A DNA stretch of 64,000 bases from Deferrisoma camini S3R1 (GTDB lineage: Bacteria; Desulfobacterota; Deferrisomatia; Deferrisomatales; Deferrisomataceae), in NCBI RefSeq assembly GCF_000526155.1, contig NZ_JAFN01000001.1, positions 1 to 64,000 on the forward strand, in the 5' to 3' direction. A program made the position numbers and the translations under genes. The notes beneath the pieces were generated by a model. That model had not been told where the DNA came from and did not search any database. It saw only the letters and a list, made by a program, of their open reading frames with translations. Positions 4,582-19,050 of the stretch are shown here, in pieces. Each line of letters starts with the position of its first letter. Within the stretch, counting starts at the first letter, position 1.

Positions 4582-5514
4582 CTAGATCTGGAACAGCGGG
4601 GTAGAGAGGTAGCGCTCGCCGCTGTCGGGCAGCACCACCACGACCAGCTTGCCCTCGTTCTCCGGCCGGCCGGCGACCTTCAGGGCCGCGGCCACGGCCG
4701 CCCCGCTGGAGATCCCGGAGATGATCCCCTCCTCCCGGGCCAGGCGCCGCGCGGTCTCGAACGCCTCGTCGTCCGTGACCTGGACCACCTCGTCCACCAC
4801 CGACATATCGAGCACGTCCGGCTTGAACCCGGCCCCGATGCCCTGGATCTTGTGCGGCCCCGGCACCCCGCCCGAGAGCACGGGGGAGGCCGCCGGCTCC
4901 ACGGCCACCGAATGGATGGCCTTGCCCTTCTCCTGCTTGATGTACCGGCTCACCCCGGTGATGGTGCCCCCGGTGCCCACCCCCGACACCAGGATGTCGA
5001 TCTTGCCCTCGGTGTCGTTCCAGATCTCCGGGCCGGTGGTCTTGAAGTGGATCTCCGGGTTGGCCGGGTTCTTGAACTGGTTGGGCATGAAGTAGCGGTT
5101 CGGGTCCGAGTCCACGATCTCCTGGGCCTTTCGGATCGCCCCTCCCATGCCCTCGCTGCCGGGGGTCAGCACGAGCTCGGCGCCGAACGCGGCGAGCATC
5201 TTGCGTCGCTCCATGCTCATGGTCTCGGGCATGGTCAGGATCAGCCGGTACCCCCGGGCGGCGCACACGTAGGAGAGGGCGATGCCGGTGTTCCCGCTGG
5301 TGGGCTCCACCACGGTCACGCCGGGTTTCACGAGCCCCTTCTGCTCGGCGTCCCAGATCATCGAGGCCCCGATCCGGCACTTGACCGAGTAGGCGGGGTT
5401 CCTTCCCTCCACCTTGGCCGCCACCGTGGCCTTCAGGCCCTGGGTCAGACGGTTCAACCGGATGAGGGGGGTGTTTCCGATGCTCAGGCTGTTGTCCTCG
5501 AAGATGCGGGCCAT
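4582..5514 (-). CDS. cysK: Cysteine synthase A (O-acetylserine sulfhydrylase)
   Basis: A 310-residue, full-length PLP enzyme that makes cysteine from O-acetylserine and sulfide. The PLP lysine is K45 in [15 protein letters not shown], the substrate loop is [10 protein letters not shown], and the phosphate-binding region [14 protein letters not shown] is present. The C-terminus ([14 protein letters not shown]) has the usual CysK ending. The ATG at 5514 has GGAGGAG 5 bp upstream. It is transcribed alone, with a promoter-like pair and a leader hairpin upstream. Confidence 0.95.
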
Positions 5515-5632: not shown

Positions 5633-7135
5633 CTAGAAGAAAGTTTCGAAAGAAAGAGGGTTTTCCCGGGTCACCCGGATTGCGGCGCGTCCGGGCAGGG
5701 GGCATTTGGTCTCGCAGATCCCGCACCCCACGCACCGTTTCTCCTCCACCCGGGGCAGCTTGAGCCCCGGTCGGGCCGGATCCGGGTCGAACACGATCGC
5801 CTTGGGCTGGGTGGGGCAGTGCTCCTCGCACACGAGGCAGTTGCGGCCGGACCGCCACGGCAGGCACCGGTTGCGGTCGAACACGGCCAGGCCGATGACC
5901 CACCGCTCCTTCTCCCCCTCGGCCAGGTACCCGATCGCGCCGGTGGGGCAGACCTGGCCGCACAGCCGGCAGTGGTACTCGCAGTACCCCAGACGGGGAA
6001 CGAGCCGGGGGGTCCACATCCCCCCCAGGCCGGCCTCCAGCAGGGCCGGGTGCAGGGCGTTGCGGGGGCACACCCGCATGCAGGCCCCGCACCGGATGCA
6101 TCGTTTCCGGAACTCGTCCTCGGCCTTGGCGCCGGGGGGCCGCAGGAAGTACGCCCCGGTCTCCGCCTCCGCGGCGCGGATCCGAGGGAAGAGCCCGGCT
6201 GCGAGCCCGAACCCGGCGGCCGCCACCACGGCCCGCCGGTGCCGGCGGGGCACCGGGGAGGAGGGCCGGACAGGCCCGGATCGGCGCGCGGCCCGGGGGC
6301 ACACCGAGGCGCAGGAGCCGCACTGGATGCACACCCCAGGCTCCGCCGGATCGGCGGCCGAGGCCCCGGTGGGGCAGGCGGTCCCGCAGGCGGAGCACGG
6401 CCCGCAGTCGGGGGCCCGCGACCGGCCGAACGGGCCGATCCGGGCCAGGAGGCCGAGGAGGGCCCCCAGGGGGCACAGGTGGGCGCACCAGAATCGGGGG
6501 GCCAAGAGCTCCAGCGCGAGCACGGCCCCGAACCCGACCGCGGTGAGCCCGGCCATCAGGAACCGGGGGCGTCCGAAGGCGAGGACCGGGTCGAGCCACC
6601 GGTACAGGAGATCGGCCGCGTCCGGAGAGGCCCGATCCGCGACCGCGACGAGCCCCTTCAGACCCGCGTCGAGCCAGGGGTGGAACGCGAGGGTCAGGGA
6701 ACGGAGCAGGAGGCTCAGGGGATCGAACAGGCCCAGCAGCGGCAGGCCCGCCGCGGCCGCGGCGACGAGCCCCACCAGCACGGCCGGGGCCAGGGCCGCA
6801 GGCGCCCGCCGGAGGCGCCGCCCAGGCCCGACGACCCGCCGCAGGCCGGCTCCGGCCCCGTCCAGCACCGTGCCCATGGGGCACATCCAGCCGCAGAAGA
6901 ACCGGCCCAGGAACACCGTGGCCGCGGCCAGCACCAGCGCCCCCAGCCACCGGGGATCGAGCGCCTCTCGACCCACGGCCAGAGCCTCGGCCACGAAGGC
7001 CAGGGGATCGAGCCGGAACACCAGATGCACCGGCCAATCCAGCAGATCTTGCCCCCGGTAGGCGGTCCGGGCGAACAGGGCCAGGAACCCCAGGAACAGC
7101 AGCAGCTGAACCGTGCGGCGCGGTCGAACCCTCAC
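5633..7135 (-). CDS. NapH/NapG-like polyferredoxin fusion, membrane-bound
   Basis: 500 residues. The N-terminal half is NapH/NosR-like, with several membrane helices and two CxxxCP loops (C81/C85 and C217/C221), then two 4Fe-4S clusters (C244-C254, C269-C279). A second basic/hydrophobic stretch (about 298-322, RRHRRAVVAAAGFG) resembles a signal anchor. It leads into a NapG-like ferredoxin with four further clusters (346-356, 385-396, 424-440, 468-478). In Nap/Nos systems the two are separate quinol-side electron carriers; here they are fused. No napA or nosZ is nearby, so the acceptor is unknown. The GTG start overlaps the DUF362 stop (GTGA). Confidence 0.82.
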   Translation of the reverse strand: MRVRPRRTVQLLLFLGFLALFARTAYRGQDLLDWPVHLVFRLDPLAFVAEALAVGREALDPRWLGALVLAAATVFLGRFFCGWMCPMGTVLDGAGAGLRRVVGPGRRLRRAPAALAPAVLVGLVAAAAAGLPLLGLFDPLSLLLRSLTLAFHPWLDAGLKGLVAVADRASPDAADLLYRWLDPVLAFGRPRFLMAGLTAVGFGAVLALELLAPRFWCAHLCPLGALLGLLARIGPFGRSRAPDCGPCSACGTACPTGASAADPAEPGVCIQCGSCASVCPRAARRSGPVRPSSPVPRRHRRAVVAAAGFGLAAGLFPRIRAAEAETGAYFLRPPGAKAEDEFRKRCIRCGACMRVCPRNALHPALLEAGLGGMWTPRLVPRLGYCEYHCRLCGQVCPTGAIGYLAEGEKERWVIGLAVFDRNRCLPWRSGRNCLVCEEHCPTQPKAIVFDPDPARPGLKLPRVEEKRCVGCGICETKCPLPGRAAIRVTRENPLSFETFF

Positions 7136-8040
7136 CGGACCGGAACCCTCCCCAGGTCGGCCACGCCCAGGCCCCGCTCGTGGGCCCGCCGGATGTAGCC
7201 CACCTCCATGGGGTCCACCCCGAACACCCGGGCGCCCCAGGCGTCGGCGGCCACCACGTCGGTCGTGGCGGCCAGCCGGTTCGCCACCCGCACCCCCTCG
7301 GTGCCCCCGCCCTGGGGTCCGTTGCGGGTGAGGATCCGGGTCGCGTCCACCACCACCAGGTGGGAGCGCACCGCAAGGTTCAGATCCACCAGGCTCTCGG
7401 CGATGTCCCAGTGGATCCGGCCCCGGTTGCCCCCCATGACGCCCATGAGGTTCTTCATGGCCAGGGTGACCCCGGTCAGGCCGTGGTGCTTCACCACCGG
7501 GCAGTTGATCAAGACGTCCGCCGTGAGGGCCGGCCGGTACAGGGGCCACCGGGTCAGTTTGCGCGCGCCGGCGATGGCCACCACCACGAACCGGTCGTCG
7601 CGCACGTACTCCAACCGGACCCGGTCGTCGCCCAGCGCCTCCACCGCCGCCCGGATGCCGCTGCGCTCGTAGGAGCGTCGGGCGTCGTTGCAGGTGCGGT
7701 CGAAAACCCGGACCGACCGGGCGCCGGCCCGGCGGGCCAGTCGGGCCAGCTCCGCCACCACGGCCGGGTGGGTGTTGGCCGCCTCCTCGGGGGTGCGGTC
7801 CCATCCGATGTTGGGCTTGACCACCACCCGGTCGCCGGGCCGCACGAACGCGGCCATGCCCCCCAGTTTCCCCACCGCCGTGCGCACCAGGGCCGCCGGG
7901 TCTTCGCCCCGGACCTCGGCCAGGGGCCGGGGCACGGGCGCGGCCCGGGCCGGGCGGGTCAGGGGCAGGGGGAGCCAGGGAGCCAGGGCTGCCGCCCGCA
8001 GCCCGAGCCCGAGGAACCGGCGGCGCGAGAGCGGGATCAT
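7132..8040 (-). CDS. DUF362 domain-containing protein, Tat-exported
   Basis: About 302 residues. The N-terminus carries a twin-arginine signal (SRRRFLGLGLRAAALAPWLP), so the protein should be exported folded. The body is DUF362 (GDRVVVKPNIGWDRTPEEAANTHP, INCPVVKHHGLTGVTLAMKNLMG, about residues 65-250). DUF362 proteins often accompany ferredoxins and cofactor-bearing enzymes, but their reaction is not established. It lies between a periplasmic binding protein (5 bp upstream) and the polyferredoxin (GTGA overlap), suggesting one periplasmic redox unit. Confidence 0.83.
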   Translation of the reverse strand: MIPLSRRRFLGLGLRAAALAPWLPLPLTRPARAAPVPRPLAEVRGEDPAALVRTAVGKLGGMAAFVRPGDRVVVKPNIGWDRTPEEAANTHPAVVAELARLARRAGARSVRVFDRTCNDARRSYERSGIRAAVEALGDDRVRLEYVRDDRFVVVAIAGARKLTRWPLYRPALTADVLINCPVVKHHGLTGVTLAMKNLMGVMGGNRGRIHWDIAESLVDLNLAVRSHLVVVDATRILTRNGPQGGGTEGVRVANRLAATTDVVAADAWGARVFGVDPMEVGYIRRAHERGLGVADLGRVPVR

Positions 8041-8045
8041 GGCGG

Positions 8046-8606
8046 TCAGATCAGCTTCCTGCGCCGCAGGAAGTCCCGGGCGGCCTTGCGGGGATCGCCC
8101 CGGTCCGTCAGCGTGGCCAGGACGTCGTCGGTCACCAGCCCGCGGGTCTTGGCGATCAGCCGCGGCAGGGCCGGGAACTTGCGCAGGATATCCTTGCGGG
8201 CCACCGGAGCGGCCGGCCCCTCGCCGGCTTCCCCATAACCCAGGGGCGGCAGCCACACCAGGTTGAACCGTTCCAGGTAGGCCTCCTTGACCAGATCGTA
8301 CCGGGCCTTGGGGTCGCCCGGGTCGGCGAGGTCCAGCCGCTCCAGGGCCCGGCCGGCCGCCTCCACCACGATGTCCACCTCGTGGCGCACCATGGCGTCG
8401 TGGGCCGCGTCCGGCCCGTCGAACTCCTGGATCTTCACGGTGGTGCCGGTGCGTTCGTTGATCAGCACGGCCAGGATCTGGGCCACCACCCGCCCTTCGG
8501 GCCGGGCCACCGCCCCCAGGATCAGGGTCTTGCCCACGCAGGCCAAGCCCGGCGTGGCGAACAGCACAAGCCCCACCACGGCGCACACGAATCTCTTAAG
8601 GGTCAA
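8046..8606 (-). CDS. Periplasmic substrate-binding-like protein (OpuAC/glycine betaine type, short)
   Basis: 186 residues with an N-terminal signal peptide (MTLKRFVCAVVGLVLFATPG). The body resembles the first lobe of QAT-type (glycine betaine/osmoprotectant) binding proteins: LILGAVARPEGRVVAQILAVLINERTG, TTVKIQEFDGPDAAHDAMVRHEVDIVVEAAG. Full-length family members are 270-300 residues, so the second lobe is reduced. No ABC permease or ATPase lies nearby. The TTG at 8606 is chosen because GGAGG lies 7 bp upstream, within a repeated leader module. Function with the DUF362/ferredoxin genes is unknown. Confidence 0.65.
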   Translation of the reverse strand: MTLKRFVCAVVGLVLFATPGLACVGKTLILGAVARPEGRVVAQILAVLINERTGTTVKIQEFDGPDAAHDAMVRHEVDIVVEAAGRALERLDLADPGDPKARYDLVKEAYLERFNLVWLPPLGYGEAGEGPAAPVARKDILRKFPALPRLIAKTRGLVTDDVLATLTDRGDPRKAARDFLRRRKLI

Positions 8607-8755: not shown

Positions 8756-10546
8756 TTAGGGCGCCCGTACCTCCAGGCACAAGAGCCCCTGCTCCCTCGT
8801 CCCGACGAACACCGTGCTCCCCAGGGCGGCCGGGTCGGCCTGGGCCCCCTCGCCCACGAGCCAGGCGTCCCACTCCATACCGGTGGCCGGGTCGAGCAGG
8901 TACGCCCACCCCCCCAGGGTGGTCACGACCAGGGCCCGGTCGTCGAGAACGAGGGGGGCCGAGCGCACTCCCCCCTCGAGGGGCACCTGCCACAGCTGCC
9001 GGCCCGAGCCGGGATCCACGGCATGGAGCCGACCCCGGTCGTCGCCCAGGTAGAGGGCGTCCCGGTCCAGGCTGGGCCCGCCGTACCATATGGGGGCCCC
9101 CAGGTCACGGGTCCATCGCTCTCGGCCGGTAACCGGATCCAGGGCGTGGAGGACCCCGGACCGGTCTGCCACGAACACCCCCGGCCGCCCCGCGGCAGCC
9201 CTGGACAGGAGGGGGGCCCCGGCCCGATGGGACCAGCGAAGCGCTCCGGTGGCCGGGTCGAGGGCGTAGAGGGTACCGTCCTGGCAGGGAGCGAGCACCA
9301 GGCCCGGGGCCACGGTCAGCGGCGCCCGGAACGGACCCTTCCCCTCGAAGGTCCACAGGGGGGCCAGCCGGCCTTCTCGCGTTTCAAACGCCCGCACCCG
9401 GCCGTCCCACCCGGCCGCGAACAGGGTGGAGCCCGCGAAGGCGGGGGCCGACTGGCGATGGTCGTCGGCCGGCGAAGGGGTGCTCTCCGCCCGGTCCAGC
9501 ACCGTCAGGTCGGGACGGGAGAGGAGGTACAGGCCTCGATCCCACGACCAAACGGCCAGGGTCCCCGGGCCCAGGGCCGGGCCGGCGTCCACCACGTCGG
9601 GCAGGAGAGCCTCGGCCCGCACCCGGCCGTCCAGACCGCCCAGCCGGACCACCCGGCCGGCCCAGGAGGCGGCGTACACCCCCCCGTCCGCAGGCCGGGC
9701 CGGGGCGTCCACGAACCCTCCCAGATCGGCCGACCACCGGCCGTCCCACCCGGGCCAGCCCTCCGGGCCGGCCCAGGCGACCTCCCCGGGCTTCGCGTCG
9801 ATCCGTACCCCGGGATTCCCCTCGGGGGGGCGGGGCGGGGGGGCTCCCCAGTCGTTCCCCCGGGTTATCACGGTGCCGGTGAAAAAGTCCCCCGGCCGCA
9901 GGGGCACGTCGTTTTCCCGGAACCGGTTCCCCACGAACTCCGACCCGGCGTCCTCCTCGAACAGGAAGAGGGCGGTTCGGTTGTGGTGGAACCGGTTGGC
10001 CTCCACCCGGTTCCGGGACCGGTGGGCGTTGTAGGCCTTGCCCGGGTGGCCGTAGAACAGGTTCCGGGCGACCACCAGCTCGGAGTTGCCCAGGCGGGTT
10101 CCGTCCACGTTGCGCCGGAACACGCTGTCGGTGATCCGGCCCCGGGCGAAGTGGGCATGGATGCCCCGGGTGCTCCCCTCCAGCACGCACCGGCTCATCT
10201 CGATCCGGCCGAAGTCCACCCGCACCTCCCCCCACCGGCCGGGCCGGGCCGGGCCGTCGGCCGGCGCGAACACGATGGGCCGCTCCCGGGTCCCCCGGGC
10301 GGTCAGGTCCCCCTCGATCCGGATCGAGGCGTCGCCCCAGCCGTCGCCGTCGTCGTCGCGGAACGCGAACAGCACCCGGGTGCCGGGCTCGATCACCAGC
10401 CGGGTGCCCCGGGGCAGGACCACGTCCCGGGTGATCCGGACCTCTCCGGACCACCGGATCACCCGGTCCGGGGCCGGGCGCCCTGTCAGGGCGCACCCGG
10501 CCAGCGATACGGCGCCCAGTAGCAGAGCGGCGAGGCCGCGCCTCAT
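8756..10546 (-). CDS. Lipoprotein with NosD-like beta-helix and PQQ-type beta-propeller
   Basis: 596 residues with a lipobox (LAGC, about residues 15-18). The first half (about 30-260) looks like a right-handed parallel beta-helix of the NosD/pectate-lyase type (GTRLVIEPGTRVLF, GIHAHFARGRITDSVFRRN, NRVEANRFHHNRTALFLFE). The second half (about 270-590) is a PQQ/BamB-like propeller with repeated GTLYALDPATGALRW-type blades. It is probably anchored in the outer or inner membrane facing the periplasm. The ATG overlaps the upstream lipoprotein stop (ATGA). Enzymatic residues are not evident, and a binding or assembly role is more likely. Confidence 0.75.
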   Translation of the reverse strand: MRRGLAALLLGAVSLAGCALTGRPAPDRVIRWSGEVRITRDVVLPRGTRLVIEPGTRVLFAFRDDDGDGWGDASIRIEGDLTARGTRERPIVFAPADGPARPGRWGEVRVDFGRIEMSRCVLEGSTRGIHAHFARGRITDSVFRRNVDGTRLGNSELVVARNLFYGHPGKAYNAHRSRNRVEANRFHHNRTALFLFEEDAGSEFVGNRFRENDVPLRPGDFFTGTVITRGNDWGAPPPRPPEGNPGVRIDAKPGEVAWAGPEGWPGWDGRWSADLGGFVDAPARPADGGVYAASWAGRVVRLGGLDGRVRAEALLPDVVDAGPALGPGTLAVWSWDRGLYLLSRPDLTVLDRAESTPSPADDHRQSAPAFAGSTLFAAGWDGRVRAFETREGRLAPLWTFEGKGPFRAPLTVAPGLVLAPCQDGTLYALDPATGALRWSHRAGAPLLSRAAAGRPGVFVADRSGVLHALDPVTGRERWTRDLGAPIWYGGPSLDRDALYLGDDRGRLHAVDPGSGRQLWQVPLEGGVRSAPLVLDDRALVVTTLGGWAYLLDPATGMEWDAWLVGEGAQADPAALGSTVFVGTREQGLLCLEVRAP

Positions 10547-11583
10547 CGGGTCACCACCACCGTGAGACCGGTCAGGCGGGCCCCGGGCGCCAGATCGATC
10601 CGGGAGCCCCGGGGGCCCCGGTAGAAGCCCACCCGCTCATCGAGCCCCGGCGGGCCGCCCAGCCGCTCCCGGGCCCCCAGGTACACCACCCCCGCCAGGG
10701 GGGTCTCGATCCGAAACCGGCCGTCCTCGGCCGTGGGCTCGGAGAACGCGTCGGGTCGGTCGAGCATGTCGGGGTTGCGGTACAGGCACGCCCGCAGGCC
10801 CGGCAGGGGGTTGCCCCGGCCGTCCACGATCCGTCCCTCCACCACGGCGAAGGCGCCGCGGAACCGGGCCATCCGCTCGGCCGAGGGCAGCTGGACGGTC
10901 TCGATCGTGACCCGGACCCTCTCGCCCCGGGAGAGGCGCAGGGGCAGGTGGGGCAGCAGTCCGAACCGGTCCCCCGGGTGCAACCGGCCCCGCGACCCGG
11001 GCAGCCGGGCCCGGGCGGCCAGGTAGTAGGTGCCGGGCGGCAGGGGCAGGACGAACCGGCCCCGGCCGTCCGTGGGGTCGGACACCGCGTAGCCGGGGCC
11101 CCGCAGCCCCTTGCCGATCTGCAGGTAGGCGAACACCCGGGCCCCGGCCACCGGTTCGCCGTCGGCCACCACGGTTCCCTCCACCGCCTCCTTGCCCGGT
11201 TCGGTCCGCAGCCGCTCGGCGGGGTGGATCGGGACCAGCGGCAGGTTGAGGCCGGTGAGGCGGGTCAGCACGAGCACGGGGTTGCGGCCAAAAAATGCGT
11301 ACAGCCCGGGTGCCCGGGCCTCCACCAGGTACCTGCCGGGGGGGACCACGGCACGGAAGACGCCTTTGGATCCGGACGTCACCCGGGTCACGGGCTCGGG
11401 AAGATCCATGGGCTCGGTGGGGAGGGGCAGAAACCGGACCTCGGCCCCTTCGAACCCCTTCCCTTGGACCGACACCCGTCCCTCCACCGGAGCGCCGGCC
11501 GGCCGGGGGGGAGGCGCTCCCGCGCACGAGGCCAACAGGGCCGCCACGAGCGCCGCAGCGACCCGGTAGAGCCGCCCGCTCAC
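10543..11583 (-). CDS. Lipoprotein with carboxypeptidase-regulatory-like (Ig-like) repeats
   Basis: 346 residues. A signal peptide ends in a lipobox (LLASC, about 16-20). The mature part has at least three beta-sandwich repeats of the carboxypeptidase-regulatory-like type (VEGRVSVQGKGFEGAEVRF, VEGTVVADGEPVAGARVFAY with GRFVLPLPPGTYYLAARA, VEGRIVDGRGNPLPGLRACL with GRFRIETPLAGVVYLGA). Such domains bind or scaffold and are usually not catalytic. The GTG at 11583 is preferred over the ATG at 11601 because it overlaps the permease stop as GTGA. The gene is coupled to the beta-helix lipoprotein downstream. Confidence 0.72.
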   Translation of the reverse strand: MSGRLYRVAAALVAALLASCAGAPPPRPAGAPVEGRVSVQGKGFEGAEVRFLPLPTEPMDLPEPVTRVTSGSKGVFRAVVPPGRYLVEARAPGLYAFFGRNPVLVLTRLTGLNLPLVPIHPAERLRTEPGKEAVEGTVVADGEPVAGARVFAYLQIGKGLRGPGYAVSDPTDGRGRFVLPLPPGTYYLAARARLPGSRGRLHPGDRFGLLPHLPLRLSRGERVRVTIETVQLPSAERMARFRGAFAVVEGRIVDGRGNPLPGLRACLYRNPDMLDRPDAFSEPTAEDGRFRIETPLAGVVYLGARERLGGPPGLDERVGFYRGPRGSRIDLAPGARLTGLTVVVTR

Positions 11584-12545
11584 GGTGTTGCCAGGGCCCA
11601 TCGAGCCAGCCCCAGGGCGGCCGACCCGAGGAGGCCCAGCCCCAGGTACACCCCCAGCACCCGGGGCCGGAACATGGCCGCGAGGGTGGCCGAGGCGGGG
11701 ATGCTCGTGACCGGCCCGGCCATGAGGAACGCCAAGTCCGGGCCGGCCCCCAGCCCCTTGGCCTGGAGCCCTGCCAGCACCGGCACCACCGGCACCTGGT
11801 GCAGGGGCAGGGGCAGGGCCACGGCCGTGGCCACGAGCACCCCCAGGGGCCCCCCCTGGCCACCGAGCCACACCAGCCAGCGGGTGGGAACCAGCACCTG
11901 GATCACCGCCTCCAACAGGATGGCCACCCCCACCCACAGGAACACGAACGAGCCCACGTCCCAGAACCGGTCGAGGAAGAATCGCAGCCGGCTGTCCCGG
12001 GGCATCACGGTCATGGTTCGCACCCGGAACCCGTTGGCGCAGGCGATCTCGTACGCCGGGGCCAGCTCCCCCTCGGGGGTGTACACGGGCCTGAGCCGCA
12101 GCAGGTCGGGGCCCAGCACCCCGGCCCGCTCCAGGGCCAGGGTTCCGAACCCCGCCAGGAGCCCGAGGAACACGGCCCCCCCCAGCTTCCACCAAGCAAG
12201 GGCCGGACCCACCCCGCCCCAGGTCAGCGCGAACGAGGCCGGGTCCATCACCGGGCTCGTAACCAGCAACGCCATGAGGGGGGGCAGCGGAACCCCCGAC
12301 AGGGCCATGGGGATCACCACGGGAAGGATGCCGCACGAGCACAAGGGGCTCAGGGTACCCACGGCCGTGGCGATCAGGATCCCCCACGGTCCGGCCCGGC
12401 CCACGTACACCCGCACCTTGCGGTCCCACTGGTAGGTCTTGATCAGGGCCGCCACCCCCACCCCCAGCAGGGTGAACCATCCCATGCGCCAGGCCTCGCC
12501 CAGGGCGACCCGTCCGATCTCCCGCAACGCCTCCCACCCGGTCAC
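11580..12545 (-). CDS. Permease of the SO_0444/ArsP (DUF318) type
   Basis: About 321 residues with eight or so hydrophobic helices. The signature SPLCSCGILPVVIPMALSGVP (about residues 65-85) with a CxCG pair, and the second-half LPLPLHQVPVVPVLAGLQ and GPVTSIPASATLAAMF segments, identify the permease family of SO_0444 and ArsP, which exports metal(loid)s. A central soluble loop (about 155-205) separates the halves. The GTG start overlaps the FmdE-gene stop (GTGA). The cargo cannot be read from sequence. The Cys pair suggests soft metals. Confidence 0.78.
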   Translation of the reverse strand: MTGWEALREIGRVALGEAWRMGWFTLLGVGVAALIKTYQWDRKVRVYVGRAGPWGILIATAVGTLSPLCSCGILPVVIPMALSGVPLPPLMALLVTSPVMDPASFALTWGGVGPALAWWKLGGAVFLGLLAGFGTLALERAGVLGPDLLRLRPVYTPEGELAPAYEIACANGFRVRTMTVMPRDSRLRFFLDRFWDVGSFVFLWVGVAILLEAVIQVLVPTRWLVWLGGQGGPLGVLVATAVALPLPLHQVPVVPVLAGLQAKGLGAGPDLAFLMAGPVTSIPASATLAAMFRPRVLGVYLGLGLLGSAALGLARWALATP

Positions 12546-13012
12546 GGCAATCCCTCCACCCGCAAGAGCCGGGCGGCCTCGGCAGTGGCCAGCTCGGCCA
12601 GGATCTCTTCGGCCAGGGCCTCCCTCCGGGCCCGTTCCTCCGACCCCTCGGGAAGCTCGAGGGCGGCACGGCGGTGCTCGCTCCACCTGCGGCCCCGATC
12701 CAGGGCCCCGGGCAGCAGCTCGGAAGCCACCCGAAACGGCCCCTCCTCGACCCCCAGCTCGAGCCGATGGCGTCCGCCGGGCACCACCTCGAGGTTGCGG
12801 TTGCCCGGGGTGCAGCCGGTGGCCACCTGGACGCCGTCCAGGGCGCAGGTGTGGTGGTGGTACCGGGCCCGGAGCTTCACGCCGGGCTCCGGTGCCAGGG
12901 CCCGGCGGGCCGCGAGCCCGAGCCGCGCGCCCAGGATCGACATGGGGCACCGGTGGCCATGGAGCCGGGCCAGAAACCGCAACAGGTCTTCGGTGGCGGC
13001 GTCAGAAGGCAT
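12542..13012 (-). CDS. FmdE-domain protein
   Basis: 156 residues. The FmdE-like domain is evident: HGHRCPMSILGARLGLAARR (about 18-37, with H18, H20, C22) and CALDGVQVATGCTPGNRNLEV (about 71-91, two cysteines). FmdE domains, named from formylmethanofuran dehydrogenase, occur alone in bacteria and probably bind a metal through the His/Cys set. No formylmethanofuran enzyme is present. The ATG lies inside the last codons of the AAA gene (11-bp overlap) and the 3' end overlaps the permease, so a shared metal-handling role is inferred. Confidence 0.78.
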   Translation of the reverse strand: MPSDAATEDLLRFLARLHGHRCPMSILGARLGLAARRALAPEPGVKLRARYHHHTCALDGVQVATGCTPGNRNLEVVPGGRHRLELGVEEGPFRVASELLPGALDRGRRWSEHRRAALELPEGSEERARREALAEEILAELATAEAARLLRVEGLP

Positions 13013-13883
13013 AGTGGTGCGGGCAGTCCTTGCGGAACAGGTCCCAGTAGGTCTCGACCATGTCGGGGGTGAGCCAGGGCGTGATCCTCTCGAGCGCCCG
13101 CTCGAAGTCCTCGGGGACCACCTCGTCCCGGCCCGCCTTGGCGGCCTCAAGGGCGGCGCGCTTGCACAGGCTCTCGATGTCCCAGCCCACGTACCCCTCG
13201 GTGCGGCGGGCCAGGTCGTCCGCATCCACCTCGGGGGACAGCCGGGGAATCCGGGCCAGGTAGATGTCCAGCATGGCCCGCCGGTCCGCCTGCCGGGGGG
13301 GCGGCACGAACACCTTGCGGTTGAACCGGCGCTTCTCCTTGATCAGGGCCTGGTCCACCGTGTCGATCCGGTAGCACGAGCCCACCAAGGCCACGCCCGG
13401 CACCCCCTGGATCCGGTCCACCTCCTCGATGAACCGCCGGGTGAGGTCCGGGTCGGCGAACGTGGGGGGGATGCCCCGGAGGTTCCCCGGCCCCCACTCG
13501 TAGGAACATCCGGCCCGGGGGGCGAGCCACTCGCAGTCGCTCACGAACAGCACGCAGGGAGCCTCGTGGGCGGCGTCGTCGAAGGCCCGGTGGATCTCGT
13601 CGGGCTTGCCGAGCATCTCCTGGCCCGACACGTACACGAACCCCGCCCCGGCGGCCCGGGCCGCGGCCTCGGCCAGCATGGTGATCCCCACCCCCAGCGG
13701 CCCCCACAGCATCACCCCCGCCGGGGGGGTGAGGCCGAGCCGTTCCAGACGGTCGGGGTGGCGCAGGGGCAGGCAGATCATCTCGTCCAGGGTCTGCTTT
13801 ACCTCGGGAAACCCGCCGATGTCGTCCCAGGTGAGGCGGGGTTCCCGCACTTCGTAGAACACGCGCTCGAGTTTTCGGTGCAT
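13002..13883 (-). CDS. Degenerate AAA-family ATPase (Cdc48/FtsH-type module)
   Basis: 293 residues with clear AAA architecture: TWDDIGGFPEVKQTLDEMIC (18-37), PLRHPDRLERLGLTPPAGVMLWG, the C-terminal lid, and a retained Arg-rich finger region (KRRFNRKVFVPPP, about 184-196). The key residues are altered. Walker A is GPLGVGIT (61-68), with Ile in place of the essential Lys. Walker B reads VLFVSDC (D116 kept, Glu replaced by Cys117), and the sensor-1 Asn is Tyr171. It therefore may bind nucleotide poorly or act as a structural pseudo-ATPase. It is the first gene of the coupled five-gene set. Confidence 0.8.
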   Translation of the reverse strand: MHRKLERVFYEVREPRLTWDDIGGFPEVKQTLDEMICLPLRHPDRLERLGLTPPAGVMLWGPLGVGITMLAEAAARAAGAGFVYVSGQEMLGKPDEIHRAFDDAAHEAPCVLFVSDCEWLAPRAGCSYEWGPGNLRGIPPTFADPDLTRRFIEEVDRIQGVPGVALVGSCYRIDTVDQALIKEKRRFNRKVFVPPPRQADRRAMLDIYLARIPRLSPEVDADDLARRTEGYVGWDIESLCKRAALEAAKAGRDEVVPEDFERALERITPWLTPDMVETYWDLFRKDCPHHYAF

Positions 13884-13958: not shown

Positions 13959-14396
13959 ATGGGTAGTGGTTCGGACGATGTCTTCACGCGGTTGGTCGGC
14001 CTGGCCGACGGGCTGCTCCGCCTGTTCGAAGACGGGCCGGCCCGGTCGTGTGCGCAGGCTGGGGCGACCCATTGGTCCCCACCCGTGGACGTGTACGACA
14101 CGGGCGAGGCGTTCGTCATGGTGGCCGAGGTGCCGGGGCTGGATCAAGAGGCCATCCGGGCCGAGATCCAGGGAGACACCCTGGTCCTCCAGGGCGAGCG
14201 GCCCCTGGTACGGCCGACGGAGGGGCGAAGTTACCACCGCATCGAGCGGCCGGGGGGAACGTTCCGCCGGGTGTTTCGGCTGCCCGAGGACGTGGACCCC
14301 GACGCCGTGAGGGCCGTGTACCGCAACGGGGTGCTCGAAGTCACGATTCCCCGGAAGCGTCGAGGGACGCCGGTTCGGGTGTCGGTGGAGGGGTGA
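13959..14396 (+). CDS. Small heat-shock protein (Hsp20/alpha-crystallin family)
   Basis: 145 residues. The alpha-crystallin domain spans about 44-140: WSPPVDVYDTGEAFVMVAEVPG, GDTLVLQGERP, SYHRIERPGGTFRRVFRLPEDVD, ANG-like YRNGVLEVTIPR. It binds unfolding proteins as an ATP-independent chaperone in the cytoplasm. The ATG at 13959 is preferred over the TTG two codons upstream because GGAGG at 13946-13950 is 8 bp away. Its 3' end overlaps the convergent response-regulator gene by 56 bp. Confidence 0.9.
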   Translation: MGSGSDDVFTRLVGLADGLLRLFEDGPARSCAQAGATHWSPPVDVYDTGEAFVMVAEVPGLDQEAIRAEIQGDTLVLQGERPLVRPTEGRSYHRIERPGGTFRRVFRLPEDVDPDAVRAVYRNGVLEVTIPRKRRGTPVRVSVEG

Positions 14397-15000
14397 GGGA
14401 CCGGCCGGGGACGAACCGCTGCAGGAACTGGGTTCGGTTGGCCACGCCCAGCTTCCGGAACGCCGAGCGCAGGTGCGACTTGATCGTGTGGGGGCTCACA
14501 CACAGATACTCGGCCAGGGCGCGGTTGCCCAGGCCGGTACGGTAGAGGGCCTCGAGCACCTCCCGCTCCCGGTCGGTCAGCCCGTGGCGCCGGGCCAGCT
14601 CGTCCCACGGCGGGGGGGCCGAGGGCAGCGGCTTGGCCAGGGCCTCCTCCAGCCGCTCCAGGAACGTCTCCACCTCGAAGGGTTTCGGCAGAAAGTCCAC
14701 CGCCCCCTTGCGTAGGCAGTCGATGGCCGCCTGCAGGGTGGCGTACCCCGTGATCACCACCACCCGGGTCCGCACCCCCCGCCGCGTGATCCGGTCCATG
14801 AGATCCCTGCCCCCCATCCCCGGCATGCGCAGGTCGGTCACCACAACGTCGTAGGCGTTCGTGTCCAACCGCTGCCAGGCCTCCGCTCCGGAGGACGCCG
14901 TGTCGACCCGGTATCCCATGAGGCGCGAGGCACGGGCCAGCGTGTCCAGCAGGCTCTCCTCGTCGTCCACGATCAGGATGCGGGGCGGGTGTCGCGGCAC
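14341..15000 (-). CDS. Two-component response regulator, REC-LuxR type
   Basis: 219 residues. The receiver domain (about 6-120) has the acidic pocket DDEE, phospho-acceptor D56 in VVVTDLRMPG, the Thr/Ser of VITGYA and the Lys of LPKPFE. The C-terminal LuxR/GerE helix-turn-helix is at about 137-200 (HGLTDREREVLEALYRTGLGNRALAEYLCVSPHTIKSHLRSAF). No histidine kinase is adjacent. The GTG at 15000 is the first plausible codon. A 48-bp gap separates it from the diheme lipoprotein gene on the same strand, so the two may share a transcript. Confidence 0.87.
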   Translation of the reverse strand: MPRHPPRILIVDDEESLLDTLARASRLMGYRVDTASSGAEAWQRLDTNAYDVVVTDLRMPGMGGRDLMDRITRRGVRTRVVVITGYATLQAAIDCLRKGAVDFLPKPFEVETFLERLEEALAKPLPSAPPPWDELARRHGLTDREREVLEALYRTGLGNRALAEYLCVSPHTIKSHLRSAFRKLGVANRTQFLQRFVPGRSLTPPPTPEPASLDASGES

Positions 15001-15048
15001 GTCGTTTCCTCGTCTGGATCGCCCGGCCCGGAGGTCATGCCGCGGGGG

Positions 15049-15444
15049 TCACTCCCCGGGCGACACCCACGGGTGGCGGAAGCGGGCCCGCACCTTCTCG
15101 TGGGGAGGGCCGGGGGATTTGTGGCACACGAAGCACTGGATCCCGGTCTCCGCATCTCCCACCTTCTCGGGGGGGGCCTGGGCCGCGAACACGGCCAGCC
15201 GTTTGGCCGGCACCTTGGCGTGGTAGGGGAGCTGCCGAACCTCTCGGAACACCACGTCACGGTCCTCGGGGATCCCCCCCTCCTCGCCCAGCTGGACGGG
15301 GGCCAGGGCCAGCTCCCAGTCGCTGGAGATCCGGGCGCGGTGGCACTGGTCGCAGCCCCCGGGCGGGGGGATGTCCTTCCTCAGATGGCCGATCACGCAC
15401 CCGGCCAGCAGCACGGCGGTCCACACCACCCAGCGTGTTCCCAT
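15049..15444 (-). CDS. Diheme c-type cytochrome lipoprotein
   Basis: 131 residues. The signal peptide ends in a lipobox (LLAGC, about 12-16). Two CxxCH motifs follow: CDQCH near residue 31 and CFVCH near residue 103. It should be a membrane-anchored periplasmic electron carrier. GAGGAG precedes the ATG at 15444. It is transcribed away from the HAMP/11-heme cytochrome genes across a 363-bp divergent spacer, so the two sides may be co-regulated. Confidence 0.83.
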   Translation of the reverse strand: MGTRWVVWTAVLLAGCVIGHLRKDIPPPGGCDQCHRARISSDWELALAPVQLGEEGGIPEDRDVVFREVRQLPYHAKVPAKRLAVFAAQAPPEKVGDAETGIQCFVCHKSPGPPHEKVRARFRHPWVSPGE

Positions 15445-15505
15445 GCGGTCGATCTCCTCTACTGGTCCGGCCAGAAAATGGACGCTCTCACGCCCCTGAT
15501 CGGGG

Positions 15506-15541
15506 GGCAAGGGACCTGCCGCAGTGCCGGGCGCCGTCCCT
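15506..15541 (-). repeat. R1 repeat fragment
   Basis: GGGCAAGGGACCT...GCCGGGCGC matches the terminal part of the R1 element (compare 38250-38282 in reverse complement). On the minus strand one frame reads GRSLAP-like residues, as in the R1 reading frame. It sits in the 363-bp divergent spacer 15445-15807, which otherwise holds the hairpin at 15708-15746 and no gene. Confidence 0.5.
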
Positions 15542-15707
15542 TCCCCTTGGGGAGTGCGGGGGGGATGGTGGCGCGCCGCGCCCGGCGATCCCCGTCCGCG
15601 AGCCGAAACCGGTCCGTCCGATTTTCCCCGGTGCCCAGGGTACTTCGGGGAGCCTCGGGTGTCAAAACGGCGGTGGGTTAAAGGCCCCCCCGTGCCGGGC
15701 CGATCAA

Positions 15708-15746
15708 GGGAAGGACCGGCCGCCTGCGGTGGGGCCGGTCCTTCCC
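15708..15746. other. Perfect 14-bp stem-loop
   Basis: GGGAAGGACCGGCC (15708-15721) and its exact complement (15733-15746) enclose an 11-nt loop. It lies 61 bp upstream of the HAMP gene in a divergent spacer, so it is not a normal terminator. A regulatory or repeat-element role is possible. Confidence 0.55.
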
Positions 15747-15807
15747 CGATCCGTTTCCACCGGGCGGCGGCGGAACCCCCGCGGCAGCCCGGTCGAAGGA
15801 GGTGCCC

Positions 15808-16413
15808 ATGGGCGAGACCCCAGCGTCGGCAGCCAGGCCCCGCCGCCGCATCCTTCTGATCGAGCGGGCGTTCCAGGTGCGGTTCATCGCCAAGATGACC
15901 GCGGTGGTCGTTCTCGGAACGGTGCTGACCGGCGGCATCCTGTACGTGCTGGCCAACCAGGAGTTCGGCCGGGCGTTCTACAGCGCCCACTACCAGGCCC
16001 GGTCGAGCTGGGAGCTCCTGCTCCCGGCCGTGCTGGTGTCGTCGTTCGTGTCCATGACCCTCGTGGCGGCCGCGGCCACGGTGCTCACCCTGTATTCGAG
16101 CCACAAGATCGGAGGGCCGCTGTACCGGTTTCGGGCCAACCTGCGGGCGATCGGCGACGGGGACCTGACCCTGGTCACCCGCCTGCGGGAGGGGGACGAA
16201 CTGCAGGGGTTCACCGAGGCCATGAACGACATGACCCGCCGACTGCGCGAGAGGGTGCGGGAGGCCCGGGACGCGGCCGAGGATCTGCGGGTCGCCCTGG
16301 CCGAGGCCAAAGGGGTGGTCGAGGCCGGGGGGCGTTTGACCGCGGAAGGGCTGCAGGGCGTGGAGGAGGCCTCCGAACGCCTGCGCCGGGCGCTGGGGGG
16401 GTTCCGGGTGTGA
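15808..16413 (+). CDS. HAMP-domain membrane protein without output domain
   Basis: 201 residues: two transmembrane helices (about 28-49 and 71-97) with a short periplasmic loop between them, then a HAMP linker (about 95-150, SHKIGGPLYRFRANLRAIGDGDLTLVTRLREGDELQGF) and a C-terminal coiled coil. No kinase, GGDEF or MCP output follows, so it may act as a signal-relay subunit or scaffold. AAGGAGG precedes the ATG. Its stop overlaps the GTG of the 11-heme cytochrome gene, tying it to that electron-transfer system. Confidence 0.82.
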   Translation: MGETPASAARPRRRILLIERAFQVRFIAKMTAVVVLGTVLTGGILYVLANQEFGRAFYSAHYQARSSWELLLPAVLVSSFVSMTLVAAAATVLTLYSSHKIGGPLYRFRANLRAIGDGDLTLVTRLREGDELQGFTEAMNDMTRRLRERVREARDAAEDLRVALAEAKGVVEAGGRLTAEGLQGVEEASERLRRALGGFRV

Positions 16414-17936
16414 GGCCGGCTCGATCGCCCTGGGTGCGGGTGGGGGCGCTGGCGGTCGTCCTGGGCTGGGCCGGAACGGCCGCGGCCGCGGGGCCCCACG
16501 CGGCCCTGGCCGACCCGGAGAGGTGCGGCCGGTGCCACGTGGAGGTGCCCGGACCCGACACCCCCCGGCCGTACCGGTTTCGGCGGGACATCGTGAGCCT
16601 GTGCCTGGAGTGCCACCGGGACAAGGACCTGTCGTCCCTCCATCCGGTGGACATCCGGCCGGGCACGAGGATTCCCCCGGACCTGCCCCTGGACGAACAG
16701 GGCACCATGACCTGCGCCACCTGCCACGACCCCCACTCCCCGGCCGAGGCGGACGAGCCCTACGTGGCCGAGCCGATCGCCCGGCGTCTCCTGTCGATGC
16801 TGGGAAGAGGCCGACGGCACCGGACCTATTTCCTCCGCCGCCGCAACGACCAGGGGCAGCTGTGCCTCGGATGCCACGACCGGTCCCGCCTGGCGACCCA
16901 GGCCTTCCACGTCCGGGAGGGGGGCGGTGCGGCCGCGTACGCCGGGTCGGGGGCGTGCAAGGAATGTCATCCGAGGATCTACGCGGCGTGGAGGCTCACC
17001 CCCCACGCCCGCATGACCCGAGACGCCCGCAAGGATCCCGGAGCGGTCCTGGGGGACTTCGATGCGGATCCGCCGTTCCTCCGGCAAGAGGTCCTCTACA
17101 CCCTGGGGTCCCACTGGACCCAGCGGTACGTGGTGGAGAAGAAGGGAAGGCTCTACGTGAAGGCGGCCATCTGGTCGATCACCCAGAAGGCCTGGGACCG
17201 GTCCTACTGGATCGACAAGCCATGGATCCCGTACTGCGCGGGCTGCCACACCACCGGGTTCGAGCCGGGGGAGCCGCCGCGGTGGGCCGAGTTGGGCATC
17301 GGGTGCGAGGCATGCCACGGTCCGGGCCGGGCCCACGTCGAGTCCGGGGGGGAGGGGCCCGTGGTGAATCCGGCGAAGCTGGCCCCCGTGCGGCGGCAGA
17401 TGATCTGTGAGTCGTGCCACACCACCGGCCACGACCGCACGGGGCAGTTCCGGTTTCCCGTGGGGTATCTGCCGGGGCGGGATCTGACGCGCTATTTCAA
17501 GGGGCTCTTGCCCAAGCCGGGGCAGGACAACACCACCTTCGCCGGGGACGAGTCCTACGAGGACCGGCACCGCCAGTGGCTGTTTTGGGTGGACCATTTC
17601 ATGGACGCCCGGGGCCTCACCTGCGACATCTGCAAGAACTTCCGGAGCCAGCTGCAGGAGACCGACAAACCCCGTCTGACCCCGACGGAGTTCTGCCTCA
17701 CCTGCCACCGGGACACGCTGCCCGCCACCCCGGTTCACGAGCGCCACATGGCGGGGGGGGTGGACTGCCGCCGGTGCCATGACCCCCTGCGCACGGCCGA
17801 CGGCACCGGATACAGCATCCACGACCACAAGTTCCTGTTCCAGGCCCCCCCGGGGCCCCCGGTGGGGCCGCCGGACCGGGCGTGCCGCACCTGCCACGCC
17901 GGAGGGGCCGAGGCCAAGAGACGCGGCGGACCGTGA
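16410..17936 (+). CDS. Multiheme c-type cytochrome, 11 CxxCH plus one CxxCK
   Basis: 508 residues with a signal peptide (residues 1-27). Eleven CxxCH motifs are visible (from CGRCH at 39 through CRTCH near the C-terminus), plus CDICK at 405-409 where family members would carry CxxCH. Lys-ligated CxxCK is the hallmark of the catalytic heme of nitrite reductase NrfA, so an active-site heme is possible. The middle (about 175-345, YAGSGACKECH, YCAGCHTTGF, GIGCEACHGPG, CESCHTTG) resembles the cytochrome c554 family. It is probably a periplasmic oxidoreductase or electron conduit. The GTG overlaps the HAMP stop, and no nrfH-like partner is seen. Confidence 0.88.
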   Translation: MRPARSPWVRVGALAVVLGWAGTAAAAGPHAALADPERCGRCHVEVPGPDTPRPYRFRRDIVSLCLECHRDKDLSSLHPVDIRPGTRIPPDLPLDEQGTMTCATCHDPHSPAEADEPYVAEPIARRLLSMLGRGRRHRTYFLRRRNDQGQLCLGCHDRSRLATQAFHVREGGGAAAYAGSGACKECHPRIYAAWRLTPHARMTRDARKDPGAVLGDFDADPPFLRQEVLYTLGSHWTQRYVVEKKGRLYVKAAIWSITQKAWDRSYWIDKPWIPYCAGCHTTGFEPGEPPRWAELGIGCEACHGPGRAHVESGGEGPVVNPAKLAPVRRQMICESCHTTGHDRTGQFRFPVGYLPGRDLTRYFKGLLPKPGQDNTTFAGDESYEDRHRQWLFWVDHFMDARGLTCDICKNFRSQLQETDKPRLTPTEFCLTCHRDTLPATPVHERHMAGGVDCRRCHDPLRTADGTGYSIHDHKFLFQAPPGPPVGPPDRACRTCHAGGAEAKRRGGP

Positions 17937-17942
17937 GGGCCC

Positions 17943-17971
17943 TTGCACGCCGGTCCGGCCCGCCGTAGAGT
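17943..17971 (+). promoter_or_regulatory. Candidate promoter of the thioredoxin pair
   Basis: TTGCAC (17943-17948), 17 bp, TAGAGT (17966-17971), 43 bp upstream of the ATG at 18014. Confidence 0.45.
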
Positions 17972-18013
17972 CGCCGACCGAGATCGTTTCCACTGCTGCC
18001 GGGAGGAACCGAC

Positions 18014-18535
18014 ATGAAGAGACTGGTTGCCGCGCTTTGTCTGGGATTCCTGCTGGTCGCCGGGGTGCCGGCGGCGTGGTCCTTGTGCCTCGAAAAGGGC
18101 CAGATCGCGCCCGACTTCACCATCGAGGACATCAACGGCAACCCCGTGAGCCTGTCGTCGTTTCGGGGCAAGGTGGTGATGCTGGCGTTCTGGGCCTCGT
18201 GGTGCCCTCGCTGCATGGAGGAGCTGGCGTTCCTCCAGGGCCTGTACACCGGCCACGAGGACGAGATCGTAGTGCTGGCGGTGAACCAGGAGACCCAGAA
18301 CCTCTCCGCCAAGCACGTGGCCAAGCTCAAGGAGGAGATCGACACCCTGGGCATCTCGTTCCCGATCCTGCTCGACAAGGACCTGGACGTGTGGAAGAGC
18401 TACTGCATCAACGCCCTGCCCACGAGCGTGATCCTGGACCGGGAGGGCAAGGTACGGTTCGCCGAGCCCAACTACTACTGGGCCAGCCAGAAGAAGATCC
18501 GCAAGGTGCTCGGGGAACTGGGGGTCGGCAAGTGA
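18014..18535 (+). CDS. TlpA/ResA-type thiol-disulfide oxidoreductase
   Basis: 173 residues, exported by an N-terminal signal peptide (1-23). Thioredoxin fold of the AhpC/TSA-Redoxin type: IAPDFTIEDINGNPVSLSSFRGKVVMLAFWASWCPRC, with active-site CPRC (C64, C67). The cis-Pro loop is NALPTSVILD. Such proteins keep CxxCH cysteines reduced for heme attachment, which fits the neighbouring cytochrome. The ATG has GGGAGGA upstream. The stop overlaps the next gene (GTGA). Confidence 0.87.
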   Translation: MKRLVAALCLGFLLVAGVPAAWSLCLEKGQIAPDFTIEDINGNPVSLSSFRGKVVMLAFWASWCPRCMEELAFLQGLYTGHEDEIVVLAVNQETQNLSAKHVAKLKEEIDTLGISFPILLDKDLDVWKSYCINALPTSVILDREGKVRFAEPNYYWASQKKIRKVLGELGVGK

Positions 18536-19050
18536 GGCCCGTGCTGACGGCTGTGCTGGCGGCCGTCGCCCTGGTGGGCACGGCGGCCGCCGAGCCCCTG
18601 TTCCGGCTGCTCGATCCCGGGGAGCAGGTGGCCCCGTTCGAGCTGCGGGACCCGCAAGGGGCGTCCCACCGGTTGGCCCGGGCCGAGGGCACCCCGGAGT
18701 TGCTGTTCTTCTGGAGCGTGTACTGCCCCAACTGCAAGGAGGCCATGCCCGGGCTGGTGGAGCTGTCCCGGCGGTGGCAGGGCCGCGGGGTTCGGGTCTG
18801 GGCCGTCAACGTGGACGGCGAGCGGTTCTCCAACGCCGTGCGGTCCTACGTGAGGGCCATGGAACTTCCGTTCCCGGTGGTGTACGATCGCCTCGAAGGC
18901 GAGACCCTGGTGGCCGCCGACCCCCTGGGGGTGACGAAGACCCCCACCCTGTACCTGCTGGACGGCAAGGGGAGGGTGGTGACCCGCCAGGTCGTCGAGG
19001 TGGACTACGCCCAACTGGAACGGGATCTTGAACGACTCCTCTCTCCCTGA
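18532..19050 (+). CDS. TlpA-like periplasmic thioredoxin
   Basis: 172 residues with a signal peptide (1-20). The redoxin fold has active site CPNC (C65, C68) in LLFFWSVYCPNCKEAMPGL and the cis-Pro loop VTKTPTLYLLDGKG. It is a divergent paralogue of the gene just upstream. The two may act as an oxidant/reductant or relay pair in cytochrome c maturation (inference). The GTG overlaps the upstream stop. The 3' end overlaps the TTG start of the dus gene by 23 bp. Confidence 0.83.
   Translation: MRPVLTAVLAAVALVGTAAAEPLFRLLDPGEQVAPFELRDPQGASHRLARAEGTPELLFFWSVYCPNCKEAMPGLVELSRRWQGRGVRVWAVNVDGERFSNAVRSYVRAMELPFPVVYDRLEGETLVAADPLGVTKTPTLYLLDGKGRVVTRQVVEVDYAQLERDLERLLSP

Follow-up and report, generated by a model that had tools for sequence, protein, structure and literature searches.

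A pseudo-AAA gene cluster of Deferrisoma camini S3R1, candidate envelope half of a GeoRSP-like peptide-modification system linked to surface multiheme cytochromes

The first 64,000 nucleotides of contig NZ_JAFN01000001.1 from Deferrisoma camini S3R1 (hereafter, the window) carry five tightly coupled genes at positions 8756-13883 of the minus strand, coding for an AAA-type protein without its catalytic residues (pseudo-AAA), an FmdE-family protein, an ArsP_1 permease, a lipoprotein with Ig-like repeats, and a lipoprotein combining a beta-helix with a beta-propeller. The question raised by this locus is what such a mixture of parts accomplishes together. An initial annotation of the window knew of no described system with this set and guessed at an apparatus for metal or metallocofactor export and deposition; no paper describing the set was found in the literature searched either. 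The reading modestly favored here is that the window cluster forms the envelope half of a GeoRSP-like peptide-modification system, encoded in two loci and sometimes in one, that serves surface cytochromes.

Gene Set and Conservation of the Cluster

All five open reading frames (ORFs) were intact and colinear with overlaps of 11, 4, 4, and 4 bp between successive genes, so the coupling by 3-11 bp overlaps that had been noted initially is real. Pfam likewise upheld the families proposed for the four genes behind the AAA, namely FmdE (75 bits), ArsP_1, CarboxypepD_reg (69 bits) for the "Ig-like" protein, and a PQQ_2 propeller with a right-handed beta-helix/NosD match for the last lipoprotein, both lipoproteins bearing a lipobox. 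The beta-helix resembled NosD weakly, with an NCBIfam score of 12.8 vs. 300 bits.

Gene-neighborhood comparison displayed the set in several phyla. Absence of the set from other genomes, named in the initial annotation as what would refute its guess, was not borne out. Full-length pseudo-AAA relatives were identified in 13 of 59 genomes, own genome included, and the protein was encoded in 58 GTDB loci from the Deferrisomatales, Desulfuromonadales (including Geothermobacter hydrogeniphilus and a Malonomonas rubra metagenome-assembled genome), Nitrospirae, Desantisbacteria, and others, mostly with genes for FmdE, the permease, and the lipoproteins behind the AAA. The gene set was maintained over 51-98% AAA identity, and its conservation is far beyond chance. 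The usual order was AAA, FmdE, permease, (FG-GAP/UnbV protein), Ig-like lipoprotein, and beta-helix/propeller, followed by (spermidine-synthase-like membrane protein), an OpuAC-like protein, and (DUF362, NapGH). The initial boundary at 8756 was thus too short, as the conserved unit continues to position 5633 with the OpuAC-like, DUF362, and NapGH genes and often cysK after them. The propeller lipoprotein and OpuAC-like genes were separated by 149 bp and the OpuAC-like and DUF362 genes by 5 bp, while DUF362 and NapGH overlapped by 4 bp. All pseudo-AAA genomes among the relatives encoded the OpuAC-like protein. It has a conserved Cys directly after its signal peptide, and its predicted model (predicted local distance difference test, pLDDT, 92) had a cut-down OpuAC/EgtUC fold with much of the fold missing.

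A Widespread Pseudo-AAA Family

The first protein of the cluster carried the Pfam domains AAA and AAA_lid_3 (54 and 52 bits; PF00004 and PF17862, both above cut-off) on a p97 D2 fold, and its predicted model (pLDDT 94) matched p97 D2 and PAN in Foldseek. The family shares the fold and the lid domain with the CDC48/p97 D2 and PAN ATPases but has a single domain, an invariant C-terminal tail, and none of the catalytic residues, both the Walker-A lysine and the Walker-B acid of an active ATPase being gone. The GPxGxGKT motif of p97/CDC48 D2 reads GPLGVGIT in the window copy, with the Walker-B Asp changed to Ser and the sensor-1 Asn to Tyr. Across 41 sequences (the window copy and 40 others, 51-78% identical to it), the Walker-A Lys position held Ile in 39 and Met in two and Lys in none, the Walker-B Asp was replaced by Ser or Thr, the sensor-1 Asn was absent from all, and the tail DCPHHYxF was present in 41/41. 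Sequences were retrieved with the patterns ITMLAEAA and IKEK[RK]RFN, only the first of which touches the Walker-A site, so that a form with Lys was retrievable via the second. The "degenerate AAA" of the initial annotation was confirmed by these replacements, and the protein is, as judged from its residues, catalytically dead and a member of a true pseudo-AAA family.

The Partner Radical SAM Locus

Parts of the cluster type adjoined genes for PqqD and a radical S-adenosylmethionine (SAM) protein of the NCBIfam GeoRSP families in genome G037 and in the AAA-less genome G035. Among the 59 relatives, a GeoRSP-like radical SAM protein (E<1e-100) was encoded by 14 genomes, comprising 12 of the 13 with pseudo-AAA vs. 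two of the 46 without, and the sole pseudo-AAA relative lacking it was an 81% complete genome. Matches to TIGR04303 were present in 34 of 40 genomes fetched for pseudo-AAA (27 over the cut-off) vs. none of 14 controls. TIGR04303 split 194 genomes, sampled evenly across the class that contains Geothermobacter, into type 1 (24 genomes, 513-690 bits) and type 2 (37 genomes, four truncated genes included, <=467 bits). Pseudo-AAA was encoded in 33/37 type-2, 0/24 type-1, and 1/133 other genomes, such that 33 of the 34 pseudo-AAA genomes carried the GeoRSP-like system and always type 2 (Fisher p ~1e-31, a value that ignores phylogeny). The pseudo-AAA and radical SAM genes lay in one gene neighborhood on the same contigs in G095 and G097 and within 12.5 kb of each other in G037.

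The type-2 locus coded for a small OpuAC-like protein having ACFG at its N terminus, a PhnD-like substrate-binding protein, a tetratricopeptide repeat protein, a YedE-type permease (335 bits, above the cut-off of TIGR04112, "putative selenium transporter"), a beta-helix protein, PqqD, and a radical SAM/SPASM protein, joined in the Desulfuromonadales by genes for the SPASM partner and for a cysteine desulfurase-like protein. It resembles GeoRSP (TIGR04302/04303/04304), in which PqqD, radical SAM/SPASM, and SPASM partner genes stand side by side, and the type-1 locus of G035 further shares FmdE, ArsP_1 and YedE-like permeases, a PhnD-like substrate-binding protein, and OpuAC-like, beta-helix, and Ig-like proteins with the type described here. 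The D. camini version differs in falling just under the curated cut-offs, in adding pseudo-AAA and NapGH/DUF362, and in being split over two loci; since its radical SAM and PqqD proteins scored below those cut-offs, the system is called GeoRSP-like and not a strict member. The possibility that GeoRSP_SPASM was a part confined to type 1 and replaced by pseudo-AAA was rejected, as weak SPASM partners adjoin the radical SAM gene in type-2 genomes too. The radical SAM proteins of loci L098 and L114-L163 shared a C-terminal PDPHCW motif reminiscent of the HPC end of the peptide described below.

A Candidate Peptide Ending in VHPC

When conserved short ORFs were sought next to radical SAM genes, an unannotated gene for a 17-20-residue peptide ending in VHPC emerged (MKKIPYVKPRIAGTSSVHPC being an example from the own genome and MKKYMKPRVVGSSNVHPC one from Desulfuromonadales). 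Its conserved short precursor gene adjoining PqqD/radical SAM is the arrangement of a radical SAM system for ribosomally synthesized and post-translationally modified peptides; the other short-ORF clusters recovered look like shadow ORFs and were discarded. No Pfam or NCBIfam model matched the peptide, both of which score such short sequences poorly. A strict DNA pattern matched 51 of the 194 class genomes and its backward control none; the matching genomes included 34/34 with pseudo-AAA and 50/61 with GeoRSP, and the only GeoRSP-negative one, G084, carries pseudo-AAA. The peptide was discovered in pseudo-AAA genomes first and then counted in this wider sample. Up to five copies, often dispersed, were found per genome, and a Shine-Dalgarno-like site was located at 90 of 123 distinct peptide genes vs. 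18% at random positions. Searching directly behind the radical SAM gene only missed the peptide in ~15 loci, and whole-genome patterns located it elsewhere in several of them. No peptide gene was found by search in the window; the two copies of the own genome lie outside it.

Peptide copies were also present inside the pseudo-AAA operon of G137 (AAA-FmdE-permease-FG-GAP-peptide-propeller) and within the compact L071 cluster. These placements and the single-cluster layouts of G037, G095, and G097 bear on an explanation by shared ancestry only, in which the loci are co-inherited in metal-reducing lineages without a joint function. That the class-level co-occurrence is mostly in related families, and that types 1 and 2 may be mere clades, would suit this explanation; it is highly improbable given those layouts and the recurrence of the association in Deferrisomatales, Desulfuromonadales, and Nitrospirae. 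The window cluster and the GeoRSP-like locus are very probably parts of the same system.

A pathway for a small-molecule redox cofactor of the pyrroloquinoline quinone (PQQ) or mycofactocin kind would consume the peptide and deliver its product to the beta-propeller lipoprotein. PqqD, a SPASM radical SAM protein with mycofactocin, AhbD, and NirJ2 as next-best NCBIfam matches, and the PQQ-type propellers are consistent with such a pathway, which is nevertheless distinctly improbable: PQQ_2 repeats are generic, no peptidase was identified, and the tie of several peptide copies to individual surface genes is suggestive of a stoichiometric partner.

Placement Behind Multiheme Cytochromes

This tie was evident among 85 peptide copies examined, 78 of which had an assessable upstream ORF. 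Forty-two of the 78 stood directly behind a gene with 5-75 CXXCH motifs, compared to a baseline of 3/442 genes with at least four CXXCH in loci selected on other grounds. The remaining upstream neighbors were FG-GAP proteins (13), radical SAM (6), an Ig-like protein (1), and others (16), several of the last being distant or spurious ORFs. The second copy of the own genome, MKRTTYVKPKIVGTSSVHPC, lies at C1:2278000-2290000 (L266) in a row with a giant MtrC/GSu-type cytochrome (the part read contains 34 CXXCH), a 1064-aa bacterial Ig-domain protein, and, after the peptide, a spermidine-synthase-like protein. TlpA pairs flanked peptide/FG-GAP or peptide/permease loci elsewhere (peptide loci L270, L271, and L275). 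A functional tie of the system to multiheme cytochromes is highly likely. At L196 (G119:C1:1082700-1090700), an HPC peptide gene was immediately preceded by a 1869-codon reading frame containing 75 CXXCH motifs.

The same placement could reflect a dedicated pathway for maturation and secretion of giant multiheme c-type cytochromes, with the HPC peptide as a chaperone or temporary heme/thiol ligand and not a lasting cofactor. ResB is encoded in L015/L071/L075-like and type-1 clusters, TlpA-like thioredoxins adjoin the window cluster and the peptide loci, NapGH/DUF362 belong to the cluster, and the peptide genes directly follow multiheme genes, all in keeping with such a pathway. This explanation is rather unlikely, as 13 peptide copies follow FG-GAP proteins instead of cytochromes and no ResB is among the window cluster genes. 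The OmcS nanowire block GSU2500-GSU2493 (cited in PMC12977616) is similarly a gene block proposed for multiheme cytochrome maturation and secretion; it differs in that the text of PMC12977616, on which the comparison rests, mentions neither radical SAM nor PqqD.

FmdE, the Permease, and Metal Handling

The His/His/Cys/Cys ligands of FmdE were kept in 38/38 homologues, and the PF02663 motif (FHGHxC plus a downstream Cys) was present, the window copy having Leu instead of its leading Phe. The Zn/Ni site of this family is defined from a solved structure (PMC2954224), all four ligands of which the window copy shares; it differs in consisting of the core domain only and in not standing beside formylmethanofuran dehydrogenase. 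The permease retained its CxC/CSC motif in 41/41 and exceeded the PF03773 ArsP_1 gathering score (119.5 vs. 32.3 bits). Its family and PLCSCG motif are those of SaoE and SO_0444, but it fell far below both NCBIfam cut-offs (60 vs. 325 and 82 vs. 300 bits, respectively) and has N/H-Q in its second repeat. FmdE and an ArsP_1 permease were also paired in an ars operon of the own genome (C1:2628000-2643000, L105). Because the FmdE ligands and permease CxC are intact and the pair recurs in that operon, handling of a soft metal or chalcogen, perhaps as part of the load that the peptide carries or travels with, is plausible. A selenium trait as explanation was rejected since selD, in 54/59 relatives, does not discriminate. 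The L105 operon, as read by eye, further held ArsR-, ArsC-, ACR3-, ArsD-, and ArsA-like genes and encoded a CcdA-like and a small thioredoxin-like protein.

An operon for efflux or detoxification of a soft metal(loid) or chalcogen, in which FmdE feeds metal to the permease and the lipoproteins sequester it outside, would draw on the same conserved ligands and ars pairing, on the weak SO_0444 (Cu/Zn) and SaoE scores, and on the YedE-type transporter in the partner locus. It is unlikely, given that no metal regulator was seen in the cluster, that the permease is so far from the named efflux families, and that the radical SAM protein, the peptide, and the multiheme linkage would be left unexplained. 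The initial guess therefore stood in its metal-type parts, whereas no sign of a metal being exported or deposited was found; the tie to radical SAM and cytochromes had been missed because those loci lie outside the window.

Gene Map and Neighboring Genes

The coordinates of the cluster and adjoining genes are given in Table 1. Membership of CysK in the system is uncertain. The block on the other side of the cluster keeps its position in the Deferrisomatales, and its products are possible partners only. Desulfuromonadales loci L032-L058 carried a conserved small protein of ~107 aa (c5, no Pfam match) and thiamine-synthesis-type genes upstream of pseudo-AAA; the thi genes, confined to that group, were taken as mere neighbors. 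A ResB-like protein running into a right-handed beta-helix was observed in L015 (6878-8620, by Pfam) and L075 (2387-4234, clustering with the L015 copy).

TABLE 1. Features of the window cluster and adjoining genes (window positions).
Feature	Position	Strand	Characteristics
Pseudo-AAA	13002..13883	-	Single CDC48/p97-D2-like domain, no Walker-A Lys, C-terminal DCPHHYAF
FmdE-family protein	12542..13012	-	Pfam; Zn/Ni-site ligands H18, H20, C22, C56 (numbering from M at 13012)
ArsP_1 permease	11580..12545	-	One CSC motif (C69, C71), second repeat without Cys
Lipoprotein with carboxypeptidase-regulatory (Ig-like) repeats	10543..11583	-	GTG start; lipobox LLASC
Lipoprotein, right-handed beta-helix and PQQ-type beta-propeller	8756..10546	-	Lipobox SLAGC
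Half-size OpuAC-like periplasmic protein	8046..8606	-	Cys-Val-Gly after signal peptide conserved; C-terminal FLxxxKLI
DUF362 protein	7132..8040	-	Twin-arginine translocation (Tat)-like signal; 170 bits
NapH-NapG-type fusion	5633..7135	-	Four 4Fe-4S motifs
Cysteine synthase CysK	4582..5514	-	Adjoins cluster in eight Deferrisomatales-type loci
Neighboring conserved block	14341..19050		Response regulator, 2- and 11-CXXCH cytochromes, two TlpA-like thioredoxins

Proposed Model

In the proposed GeoRSP-like system, cytoplasmic modification of the HPC peptide would fall to PqqD and the radical SAM enzyme. The pseudo-AAA could act as a non-hydrolysing p97-like scaffold and, with the metal-binding FmdE and the ArsP_1 permease, may pass the product, or its soft metal or chalcogen, across the inner membrane, where the OpuAC-like protein with its N-terminal Cys and the beta-helix/propeller and Ig-like lipoproteins would receive and place it. 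Electrons might be drawn from quinol via NapGH and DUF362, and the end users would be surface multiheme cytochromes and FG-GAP proteins; use of the peptide product by the cytochromes we infer from gene placement. An export or installation role for the window genes is tentative, its probability falling somewhat short of even, and this detailed order of steps is unlikely to hold in full.

Several observations weigh against the model. Four type-2 genomes lacked pseudo-AAA, and G003 has the radical SAM gene with no match to pseudo-AAA, the OpuAC-like protein, or the peptide. The own-genome radical SAM and PqqD reached 394.7 of 400 bits (TIGR04303) and 73 of 100 bits (TIGR04302), respectively, and co-occurrence within one class is partly shared ancestry, which inflates the tests. 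FmdE and the permease were missing beside pseudo-AAA in Nitrospirae and G037-like clusters and therefore are not obligatory there. Finally, translation and modification of the peptide are read from its gene and context.

Significance

For giant surface cytochromes, the mechanisms of maturation, secretion, and anchoring have yet to be settled (PMC12307469). It is conceivable, if somewhat doubtful, that extracellular electron-transfer complexes contain, as a stoichiometric part or cofactor, a radical SAM-modified mini-peptide that the window cluster, led by its catalytically dead p97-like AAA, exports and installs, and with similarly limited confidence such a peptide class may be previously undescribed. 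The NCBIfam names of the GeoRSP models give neither a function nor a peptide, and candidates for both precursor and client, along with an envelope arm, would now be at hand for these families of unknown function. The pseudo-AAA family reported here is widespread and carries an invariant Cys-Pro-His-His tail, and giant surface cytochromes, in metal-reducing lineages and beyond, are linked to a defined gene set and one small peptide.

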